From NCBI RefSeq assembly GCF_010093445.1, contig NZ_PDWW01000015.1:1-64000 (forward strand): 64,000 bases of DNA, in the 5' to 3' direction. The stretch comes from Pseudoxanthomonas japonensis (GTDB taxonomy: Bacteria > Pseudomonadota > Gammaproteobacteria > Xanthomonadales > Xanthomonadaceae). Each line of letters starts with the position of its first letter. Positions within the stretch are counted from its first letter, which is position 1. Both the position numbers and the translations under genes were made by a program. Under the pieces are notes generated by a model that was not told where the DNA came from, did not search any database, and was given only the letters and a program-made list of their open reading frames with translations. This document shows positions 30,647 through 37,365 of the stretch, one piece after another.

Positions 30647-32092
30647 ATGACGCAGGTACCGGCCCTGTTCCCGTTGCTGCCCAGCGGCCTGTTCGGTCCG
30701 CTGGCGTCGCCCAACCGCGAACACTACTGGCTGCTGCTGTGCCGGCTGTTCGACGAGTTCTTCGGGCCCGACGCGCCGGTGCCGCCGAGCATGGGCTTCC
30801 AGCGCCGCGAGATCACCGCGGCACTGGAGCGCTACCTGCTGGCCGATGACCCGTGGGAAGACGAGGACGGCGAGACGCCGGACACGCCGCTGCCCGTGCG
30901 GGTGAACACGCTCTACGAGCGCTTCCGCAGCACCGGCTGGCTGCGGCAGGAGCGCATCGGCGCGCGCGAGATGGTCACCATGCCGCCGGTCGTGCACCAG
31001 TTCCTGTCGCTGCTGGTGGAGTTCGCCGAGCATGGCCCGACCTTCGTGTCGGCGAAGATGCGGTCGATCGAACACCAGTTGCAGCAGGTGGCCGACGGCA
31101 AGGCCTCCGGCGATGCGCTGGACGAGGCCGCCGACCAGGCACGGCGGCTGCTGGTGTCGCTGTCGTCGATGAGCCTGCAGGTCCGCGACCTGATGCCGGA
31201 ACTGAGCAAGGCCGAGTCCACCGCGCAGTTCGCGCGGCAGTGGTTCGAACGCTACGTCAGCGAGTTCTTCATCGGCGACTACGCCGAGCTGCACACGGGC
31301 GACCACCCGTTGGCAAGACGCAGCGCCATCCTGTCGGTGGCGCAGCAGATCGAGAGCGGCGAGCGGCGCAGCGCGCTGCGGGCGTGGTATCGCGAACATG
31401 TCGGCGGTGGCGATGAAACGCGCGGCGACCAGCGGTTCGCACGCAGCCTGCGCCGGCTGCGCGAACTGGAGCGCATCGACGAGTACCTGGGCCGGCTGGA
31501 CGACGACATCCGCCAGGCCAACCGGCGTGCGCTGGCCTTCCTCGACTACCGCCTGCGCGCGCCCGACAAACTGGACATCCTGTTGCGCCGCGCCTGCCGG
31601 GGCGTCCAGCACGCGCCGGAAGACGCGCTGCGGCTGCCGGTGGCGCCCGGCATGCTGATGGAAGCGAGCCGCCTGCGTGCGCCGCGGCAGAAACCGCAAC
31701 CGATTCCGCGCAGCGCCAACGCCACCCAGCCGCCGACGCCCGAGCAACTGGCGCGGCTCAGCCTGCTGCGGCGGATGAAGCGCGCCCGGCTGGTCAACGC
31801 CGACGACATGGCGCGCTACGTCGGCACGCACCTGGACACCCACGACCAGGTCGCTTCCGAAGCGTTCTCCATCGCCAGCATCGAAGACCTGCGCGCCTAC
31901 CAGACCCTGCTCACGCTCGCCCTGCGCAGCCACCGCATCGGCGGCCTGCGGCGCGAAGATCCGCTGGGCCGGCTGCTGCGCGGCTACCGCGTCGAGTTGC
32001 TGGACGCGGGCGGACGCGACGACAACGGCTACCTGCGCGCGCCACGCTTCGTCGTGCGCCGCGTCGGCCCGCCCTCACGGAAAACCGCATGA
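30647..32092 (+). CDS. jetA: Wadjet defence protein JetA (kleisin-like subunit)
   Basis: A 481-residue protein, first gene of a four-gene Wadjet-type operon. The opening block ALFPLLPSGLFGPLASPNREHYWLLL resembles the JetA family of type II systems (the PF18982-like group) rather than the DUF3375 proteins of type I; the assignment to a subtype is inference. In known Wadjet complexes JetA is the kleisin that bridges the JetC heads and binds JetB. A Pro/Arg-rich linker (residues 345-370) separates a helical N-terminal part from the C-terminal winged-helix-like region. The start at 30647 has no clear ribosome site. The ATGA overlap with jetB shows coupled translation. About 200 bases without a gene lie upstream and should hold the operon promoter. 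Confidence 0.85.
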   Translation: MTQVPALFPLLPSGLFGPLASPNREHYWLLLCRLFDEFFGPDAPVPPSMGFQRREITAALERYLLADDPWEDEDGETPDTPLPVRVNTLYERFRSTGWLRQERIGAREMVTMPPVVHQFLSLLVEFAEHGPTFVSAKMRSIEHQLQQVADGKASGDALDEAADQARRLLVSLSSMSLQVRDLMPELSKAESTAQFARQWFERYVSEFFIGDYAELHTGDHPLARRSAILSVAQQIESGERRSALRAWYREHVGGGDETRGDQRFARSLRRLRELERIDEYLGRLDDDIRQANRRALAFLDYRLRAPDKLDILLRRACRGVQHAPEDALRLPVAPGMLMEASRLRAPRQKPQPIPRSANATQPPTPEQLARLSLLRRMKRARLVNADDMARYVGTHLDTHDQVASEAFSIASIEDLRAYQTLLTLALRSHRIGGLRREDPLGRLLRGYRVELLDAGGRDDNGYLRAPRFVVRRVGPPSRKTA

Positions 32093-32730
32093 AACGCAGC
32101 TGGACCACGCTCAGCCAACTCTCCAACGGCGTCTACGCCGTACAGGATTTCGAACGCACCGCCTATCGCCTGGTGGTGGAACAGGTGCTGTACGCCAGCG
32201 ACCGCAGCACGCGGCTGGCCTACCACCTGGTGGAGGACCACTACGACGACTTCGTCGCCGCGCTGGCGCCGCTGGGCATCCGCCTGGAGCGCAACGCGCA
32301 CTACCGTTACGTGGTGGCGCTGCCCGCCCATGCCGAGGGCGTGCCGGTGACGCTGGCCGAAACCCTGTTGCTGCTCGTGCTGCGGCAGCGCTACGACGAG
32401 GCGATGCGGCAGGGCCTGGTGGAAGACGAAGGCGTCGTCACCGTCGAGCTGCCGGACCTGCAGGAGGCGTACCAGGCGCTCGCCGGGCGGCCCATGCCGG
32501 ACGTCGGCACGCTGCGCGACCTGGCCCGCACGCTGAAGCGCTGGGGCACGTGCCGGCTGGTGGAATCCGAGCCGGACGACGCACAACCGTTCCACCTGCA
32601 GGTGCGGCCGGCCATCGTCGACATCGTCGGCGAGCAGTGGCTGCAACGGCTGGACCAGCACAACCGCGACGACGAAGGCGAGGCCGCGGACGGCGATGAC
32701 GTCATGGAGGACGGCGATGCAGCAGCTTGA
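32089..32730 (+). CDS. jetB: Wadjet protein JetB (DUF4194, KITE-like subunit)
   Basis: A 213-residue DUF4194 protein, equivalent to MukE/ScpB in SMC complexes. The ERTAYRLVVEQVLYASDRSTRLAYHLV opening and the LAETLLLLVLRQRYDEA helix are typical. It starts in the ATGA shared with the jetA stop and ends with a short acidic tail (DDEGEAADGDDVMEDGD) whose coding sequence also carries the ribosome site and start of jetC. Confidence 0.88.
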   Translation: MKRSWTTLSQLSNGVYAVQDFERTAYRLVVEQVLYASDRSTRLAYHLVEDHYDDFVAALAPLGIRLERNAHYRYVVALPAHAEGVPVTLAETLLLLVLRQRYDEAMRQGLVEDEGVVTVELPDLQEAYQALAGRPMPDVGTLRDLARTLKRWGTCRLVESEPDDAQPFHLQVRPAIVDIVGEQWLQRLDQHNRDDEGEAADGDDVMEDGDAAA

Positions 32731-36145: not shown

Positions 36146-37365
36146 GCGATGCGCGGCGCGTGCTGGAGCGGCTGCTGCGCAAGGGTGAGCGCGCCCGGCT
36201 GCGCGGCGACACCCCGCCCGCCTCGCTGCCGATGACCGAAGCCAGCGCGCGCGAGTATCTGGCGCTGCGCACGCTGGCCGAACGCGACACCTTCCATGCG
36301 CAGGTGGCCCTGGCCGAACGGGCCGGCGCGATTGCTGTGCAGCGCGACTCGCACCGCGGCGACGGCGAACGCCTGCTGCGCTTGACGGTGATCGACCTGG
36401 ACGCCCTCGCGGACCACCTGGGCATCGCGCTGCTCGATGCCCGTGTCGGCGAAGCCGCCGACCTGCTGGCGCGGTGGCTGCCACAGTTCCCCGTGCTCGG
36501 CGAGGTGCTGGACGCCTGGCGGAACGACCGCAAGGTGCGCGGCCACGGCCCGGAAACGGCACCCGACCTGGCCGACGCCGCACACGCGGTACAGGCCCGC
36601 CTGGCCGACGCCGCCCACGAACGCATCCTGCGTCGCGAGAGCGCGAGGCTGTTCGCCGGTCGCGTGCAGGCCAGCAAGCGGCTGGAGCAGCTCACCCCCT
36701 GGCTGGACCTGCTGACCCGTGGCTCGTTGGCGACGGACGGCATGATCGAAAAGGAACATGTGTGGGCGTCGCTGGGCCTGCGCCGCGAACCGCAACCGCT
36801 GCTGATCGCCGGCAGCGGCACGCTGCTGTTGGATGAAGGAGTCGAGCTGCCCCTCGCCACGGCCTTCCTCGGCGTGCCCCTCGATGCCCTGCAAGGTGTC
36901 CGCACGACCGCCGCCTGCCTGCTCAGCGTGGAAAACCTGGCCAGCTTCCACGATGCGGCACGCGCGCCGGGCGCCGACCGCGCGCTGCTGCTCTACACCG
37001 GCGGCATGCCCTCGCCGGCCTGGCGGCGCGCCTACGCCCGCGTGCTGGACGCACTGCCCGCCGGGTTGCCGGTGTGGCATTGGGGCGACATCGACGAGGG
37101 CGGTTTCCGCATCGCCGCGGTGCTCGCGGAAACCGCGTCGGCGCGCGGACGCCGGCTGCAGCCCTGGCGCATGTCGCCGGCCACCGTGCAGAGGAACGGT
37201 AGCGAGGAGCACGTACCGCCTGCCACCGTCCTAACAGCCATGTGCCGCTGGGCCGAGCGCGCCGGCTGGCACGACGTTGCCGACGACCTCCGCGCCCGTC
37301 CGCTGTCGCTGGAACAGGAAGCCCTGCCCGCCGAACTGCCGCACGCCAACGAGGCCTCGCCATGA
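36142..37365 (+). CDS. jetD: Wadjet TOPRIM nuclease JetD
   Basis: A 407-residue protein with an N-terminal winged-helix/arm region (residues 1-200) and a C-terminal DUF2220 TOPRIM domain. The TOPRIM acidic residues are visible: Glu264 in [11 protein letters not shown] and Asp316/Asp318 in [12 protein letters not shown]. In known systems JetD cleaves the plasmid that JetABC has extruded. The GTG start overlaps the jetC stop (GTGA), so all four genes are translationally linked. JetD completes the operon; 88 bases without a terminator follow before fadH. Confidence 0.9.

Follow-up and report, generated by a model that had tools for sequence, protein, structure and literature searches.

What becomes of a plasmid-defence operon when its nuclease is lost and its motor is kept? 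The question is raised by a locus of Pseudoxanthomonas japonensis, in a window of 64,000 nucleotides (contig NZ_PDWW01000015.1, positions 1 to 64,000, from a draft genome of 74 contigs), where four genes, jetA, jetB, jetC and jetD, form a Wadjet operon at positions 30647-37365. As reported in the accessible part of PMC10586767, the Wadjet subunits JetA, JetB and JetC constitute a structural maintenance of chromosomes (SMC) complex, plasmid cleavage is ATP-dependent, and plasmids that are linear or larger than about 100 kb escape the system. The best explanation of the locus as a whole is, with high probability, that of a complete type I Wadjet in a variable chromosomal slot, from a lineage in which JetD has often been lost while the JetABC motor has been retained.

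Gene content and type of the operon

The four genes lie on the forward strand in the order A-B-C-D, all adjacent. The kleisin-like subunit JetA (30647..32092, ATG start, 481 amino acids) is followed by the KITE-like DUF4194 subunit JetB (32089..32730, ATG start, 213 amino acids), the SMC ATPase JetC (32717..36145, ATG start, 1142 amino acids) and the predicted TOPRIM nuclease JetD (36142..37365, GTG start, 407 amino acids). The first and last junctions are overlaps of 4 bases (ATGA and GTGA, respectively), and jetB overlaps jetC by 14 bases, with a GGAGG at 32706-32710 ahead of the jetC start. A scan for promoters and terminators gave nothing above chance.

To judge from its protein profiles, the operon is a type I Wadjet with an ordinary and complete gene set. 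The best PADLOC models are all of type I, namely JetA1 (PDLC00456, 781 bits), JetB1 (PDLC00498, 319 bits), JetC1 (PDLC00513, 1649 bits) and JetD1 (PDLC00529, 497 bits). In Pfam, JetA matches PF18982 at 170.5 bits (cut-off 26.2), JetB matches DUF4194 (PF13835) at 80.6 bits (cut-off 32.7), JetD matches JetD_C at 50.1 bits (cut-off 22) and JetC matches SbcC_Walker_B (PF13558) at 65.9 bits (cut-off 27), with AAA_29 (PF13555) also over its cut-off. No NCBIfam model scored over its cut-off on the operon proteins. An earlier sequence-only reading of the window had leaned towards type II for JetA, which proved wrong, as all ten PADLOC JetA models matched at E values up to 0.1 are JetA1. It is very improbable that the operon represents a type II or type III Wadjet or some other SMC system (Lamassu or SbcCD, for example). 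Besides that earlier leaning, such an assignment could draw on the match of JetD to DUF2399 (36.1 bits, over the cut-off) and, weakly, to TIGR02679; nonetheless, each of the four proteins scores hundreds of bits higher with the type I models, JetA2 and JetB2 have no PADLOC match among them, and the best scores outside type I are 48.7 bits for JetC2, 19.7 for JetD2 and 23.5 for LmuB. Type II was rejected on these grounds, and the wider alternative is refuted at the profile level.

The catalytic motifs are intact. The alignment of JetC places the Walker A motif (APNGAGKS) at 32804..32827, the ABC signature (SGSGGEH) at 35741..35761 and the Walker B motif (LILLDEF) at 35843..35863. In JetD, Glu264 (36931..36933), a putative metal-site glutamate of the TOPRIM domain, the Asp316-Ile-Asp318 motif (DxD, 37087..37095) and the Glu391-Gln-Glu393 motif (37312..37320) are invariant in the seven JetDs aligned. 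According to the accessible part of PMC10123090, E236 and D279 of the nuclease MksG bind magnesium and E349 and E351 are its proposed nucleophiles; motif and spacing suggest that E391 and E393 are the likely counterpart of the latter pair. The central claim of the sequence-only reading, an intact four-gene Wadjet operon, is borne out by frames, overlaps, profiles and motifs, since JetA does match Wadjet JetA profiles and no Walker or TOPRIM residue is lost, the two points on which that reading had staked itself.

The fold of JetD points in the same direction. A structure model (mean predicted local distance difference test, pLDDT, 79; predicted template modelling score, pTM, 0.49) had the C. 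glutamicum nuclease MksG (8b7f) and JetD of P. aeruginosa (7til) as its top Foldseek hits, ahead of A subunits of topoisomerase VI and Spo11. The operon resembles the type I systems JetABCD/MksBEFG (MksBEFG of C. glutamicum, JetABCD of P. aeruginosa PA14 and E. coli GF4-3) in gene order, subunit families, ATPase motifs, TOPRIM residues and JetD fold. It differs from the solved members in a sequence divergence beyond detection except for the JetC head, and the IFDR motif of JetB named in the accessible part of PMC10586767 was not seen by eye at the N-terminus of JetB.

Recurrent loss of JetD among relatives

Relatives were gathered with a scan seeded by JetC, which gave 64 loci, five of them repeating loci of a genus sample of 38 genomes; together with the 12 loci of that sample, 71 loci were compared (L and G numbers below label loci and genomes). 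With this seed a loss of JetC is invisible, and the search patterns favour the clade of the operon. JetD is intact in 51 of the 71 loci, absent from 18 and partial in two. JetA, JetB and JetC are all full-length in 18 of the 20 loci that lack an intact JetD (hereafter JetD-less), the exceptions being L102, which is cut by a contig end, and L106, whose JetA frame is broken. Four of the 51 JetD-bearing loci (L093, L124, L144 and L145) also have a short or missing A or B subunit or a cut C, defects presumably due to contig ends or to errors in the draft assemblies.

Directly 3' of jetC, L046, L048, L052 and L126 retain jetD remnants or a partial copy, which shows that JetD was lost and not gained late. 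The losses appear to be numerous. A JetC tree of 70 rows (quick method, LG+G4, L124 dropped) places 16 changes in JetD, at least 14 of them on well-supported (starred) branches, and a tree of A, B and C together (52 rows, 18 of them JetD-less, leaving out 14 distant rows and L118, L124, L093, L102 and L106) places 15, at least 13 of them on well-supported branches, with 14-15 in the bootstrap; the protein trees were built without a mixture model. All rows of the two deepest groups outside the clade in the JetC tree (12 and 4 rows) carry JetD. Furthermore, JetD_C is matched in eight of the 38 genus genomes, seven with JetD-bearing Wadjets plus G211, where the match is near a distant relative of JetC, and in none of the five JetD-less genus members. 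In all eight pairs tested, JetD was the least conserved subunit. In a family sample of 198 genomes, strong DUF4194 matches (>140 bits) are found in 43, of which 26 are without a strong JetD_C match (>100 bits), adjacency aside. A second type I subgroup with a DUF3375 JetA was also encountered, with L148 (3686-10342) as its only typed member.

JetD-less Wadjet I is already known from S. maltophilia, and the present operon is one more complete type I Wadjet. As described in the accessible part of PMC11680222, 82% of the S. maltophilia strains under study there carry Wadjet I, with JetA, JetB and JetC more than 95% conserved, and its commoner form has no jetD and was judged 'probably inactive'. 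Type I JetABC is likewise conserved here and jetD lacking in 20 of the 71 relatives; by contrast, the window itself has jetD, and the losses are traced as separate events across species. From that account, the S. maltophilia operon may belong to the DUF5716 subgroup, as here, or to the DUF3375 subgroup. A JetA-JetB-JetC Wadjet is listed beside a complete one in Paenarthrobacter (PMC11719660, accessible part). No report of a recurrent, family-wide loss of JetD or of the slot described below was found in the open-licence literature, covered mostly at the level of titles and abstracts.

Constraint on JetABC without its nuclease

Nonsynonymous and synonymous changes were counted in ten triplets hand-picked from the tree, each pairing a JetD-bearing row with its JetD-less sister and adding an outgroup (L047 was used twice). 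The JetD-less branches gave 68/357 (0.19) for A, 41/162 (0.25) for B and 221/808 (0.27) for C, and their JetD-bearing sisters 85/377 (0.23), 49/175 (0.28) and 247/951 (0.26), respectively; in eight control triplets, where both sides carry JetD, the ratio ranged from 0.19 to 0.39. The presence or absence of JetD makes little difference to the constraint on JetABC, apart from one lineage where it is weaker. The Walker A motif is kept in 19 of the 20 JetD-less rows, and the signature and Walker B in all 20. The A/B and B/C overlaps are also kept in most JetD-less loci (L106 and L114 are exceptions for A/B, and L102 cannot be judged). Column conservation is 0.95-0.96 in JetD-less and 0.98 in JetD-bearing copies, a comparison biased by the choice of columns on the JetD-bearing set.

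Since JetD has been lost repeatedly while JetABC stayed under purifying selection, JetD is the dispensable part in this lineage, and selection most likely maintains the motor for a role independent of the nuclease. By analogy, this role is probably a form of chromosome handling like that reported for MksBEF of P. aeruginosa, a condensin which JetD-less JetABC resembles in having an SMC protein, a kleisin and a KITE subunit and no nuclease. JetABC does not replace Smc, because a match to Smc is present in all 38 genus genomes (37 over the cut-off). One of these genomes also has a second, diverged full-length Smc-like gene (G206:C23:15191-18640, 937 bits).

Several observations weigh against the explanation as a complete type I Wadjet whose motor is retained. 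In L147, from a P. suwonensis/taiwanensis group that is JetD-less throughout, the constraint is weaker (24-25 nonsynonymous to 24 synonymous changes in JetA, 38-44 to 66-68 in JetC), with L109 and L111 nearer to the other rows. The Walker A of L102, at a contig end, reads otherwise, and X. massiliensis has a JetA divided over two frames and no JetD (L106, which shares its contig with L158). No site in A, B or C separates the JetD-less copies after correction. Moreover, searches of PDB sequences with JetA and JetD gave no relevant match, the similarity to solved Wadjets being too weak; among solved chains, JetC could be matched, by means of a profile, to the ATPase head of 8dk1 alone; and JetD reaches low Foldseek TM-scores (0.26-0.30 with 8b7f and 7til), from a model with a pTM of 0.49. 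The defects of L102, L106/L158 and L147 would fit JetD-less copies that are inactive relics whose decay is still pending, which is also how the S. maltophilia copies were judged in the accessible part of PMC11680222. This seems rather unlikely, however, for 18 of the 20 JetD-less loci keep JetA, JetB and JetC open over their full length, the substitution ratios equal those of the JetD-bearing sisters, and the ATPase motifs are kept as described. Some JetD-less rows (L050, L053 and the P. suwonensis group) also have long branches, so that their losses may be old, although a loss is not dated by the length of its branch.

It is less probable still that JetABC restricts plasmids without JetD, through compaction, silencing or another nuclease. 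This would explain its retention under selection, and the accessible part of PMC10586767 puts forward a compaction of circular DNA by an SMC complex against viral gene expression. In the same source, nonetheless, all four subunits are needed for the suppression of plasmid transformation in B. subtilis, and a look by eye at the 420 bases after jetC revealed no common replacement gene.

Retention of the motor for a role of its own is thus the preferred account of the JetD-less copies, and the complete operon would work as other type I systems do. By this analogy, JetA, JetB and JetC would assemble into a loop-extruding SMC complex able to sense the size and shape of DNA. JetD, which is described as likely autoinhibited until JetABC acts (PMC10586767, accessible part), would stay switched off while the motor draws in a small circular DNA and would cut it once this is done, so restricting plasmids.

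According to a published idea, MksBEF condensins are descended from Wadjet systems that lost JetD (PMC10586767, accessible part), and the losses of JetD and the variable slot help to test it. The lineage offers close natural pairs with and without the nuclease, at one chromosomal position for L047 against L046 and L048; further pairs, irrespective of position, are L051 and L052, and L115 and L129. Such pairs make it testable whether a plasmid-defence SMC motor acts on the host chromosome and whether a defence system can become a condensin. They also carry a warning, as nuclease-less operons may be dismissed as broken defence though the sequence record suggests that selection keeps them.

A variable slot between ADH and fadH

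The operon lies between a zinc-type alcohol dehydrogenase-like gene (ADH, 29427..30443, forward strand) and a fadH-like gene (37454..39496, forward strand), both named as in the sequence-only reading, which had also placed the two frames correctly. These flanks are present across the genus: at set thresholds, fadH is matched in all 38 genomes and ADH in 36. The junction alignment delimits the slot to 30444..37404, its edge on the fadH side being approximate. The contents of the slot were read from match positions and the loci then checked. A Wadjet occupies the slot in eight of the 38 genomes, with JetD in five of them (G000, G219, G205, G206 and G218) and without an intact JetD in three (G117, G191 and G201; in G201 the ADH is on a different contig); the JetC of G201 is 93% identical to that of the window. 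An alternative three-gene SMC operon on the opposite strand is found in 13 genomes, neither SMC operon in eight (G207 judged by distance only), and the ADH-fadH arrangement is absent from nine. The comparison with relatives that the sequence-only reading had proposed accordingly shows a slot holding a Wadjet, a JetD-less Wadjet, another SMC operon or other genes. Four Wadjets of the genus sample are located elsewhere (G222, G216, G198 and G217). The SMC-free slots L069-L075 contain genes that, named by eye, are LysE-type exporter-, membrane protein- or aminotransferase-like.

The edges of the slot are sharp. In an alignment of 15 loci, 14 of them with the ADH side, the Wadjet and alternative loci are homologous as far as the ADH stop codon, and again from about 50 bases ahead of fadH. 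The content (Wadjet, alternative or neither) requires at least seven changes on the best FadH tree (28 loci) and at least eight on the ADH tree (27 loci), and the well-supported branches alone force four changes for the alternative operon on either. Neither is a species tree, since exchange may also affect the flanks.

The operon is likely to have reached the slot by an exchange through homologous recombination within its flanks. A recent transfer by plasmid or integrase was considered and rejected: the G+C content of the operon (about 0.69-0.735 per kb) is near that of the flanks, the 64,000-nucleotide window has no tRNA gene, none of the seven tyrosine integrase matches in the genome is on the contig of the operon, and no direct repeat of at least 16 bases joins the two slot edges. 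The sequence-only reading, which had seen no integrase or att site, had left the arrival open, and this is now narrowed to a shared variable slot with sharp edges. Among plasmid records, 12 matched JetC, all at less than 60% identity, and by the count of the tool none has one place covering at least 80% of it.

The alternative SMC operon

The alternative occupant of the slot encodes an A protein of about 463 amino acids, a B protein of 238 and an SMC-like C protein of 935. SbcCD, considered from gene size, was dropped, the operon having three genes with a small middle one. B is a weak match to PADLOC JetB3 (E 0.031); A has no Pfam or PADLOC match, only chance-level matches in NCBIfam, no relevant match in a search of PDB sequences, and a poor structure model (pLDDT 54). 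Comparison of its kleisin and KITE candidates with JetA and JetB gave hhalign probabilities of 0.2% and 0.7%, from shallow profiles. The three gene sizes resemble those of P. aeruginosa MksF, MksE and MksB, and the operon is possibly MksBEF or an unlisted Wadjet-like type.

The alternative operon is present in 26 of the 198 genomes of the family sample. Four of the 33 alternative loci compared (L056-L068 and L164-L183, with fewer than 1500 bases beyond C in L067 and L165) have a JetD-like TOPRIM gene after C (L068, L169, L177 and L180). A profile comparison relates this gene to JetD at a probability of 98.1%, and the copy in L068 is matched by JetD1 at 49.5 bits. On a bolder reading, the slot would belong to condensins, Wadjet and an MksBEF-like operon being alleles that can replace each other there, JetABC would have a chromosomal role under selection that does not depend on JetD, and the Wadjets of the family would be turning time and again from plasmid defence into condensins, in some 13 or more separate events; this is a tentative proposal, with the balance somewhat against it. 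In G211, which has the alternative operon in its ADH-fadH slot, a distant JetC-like gene (27-29% identity) lies at G211:C5:75989-80697, with the JetD_C match nearby.

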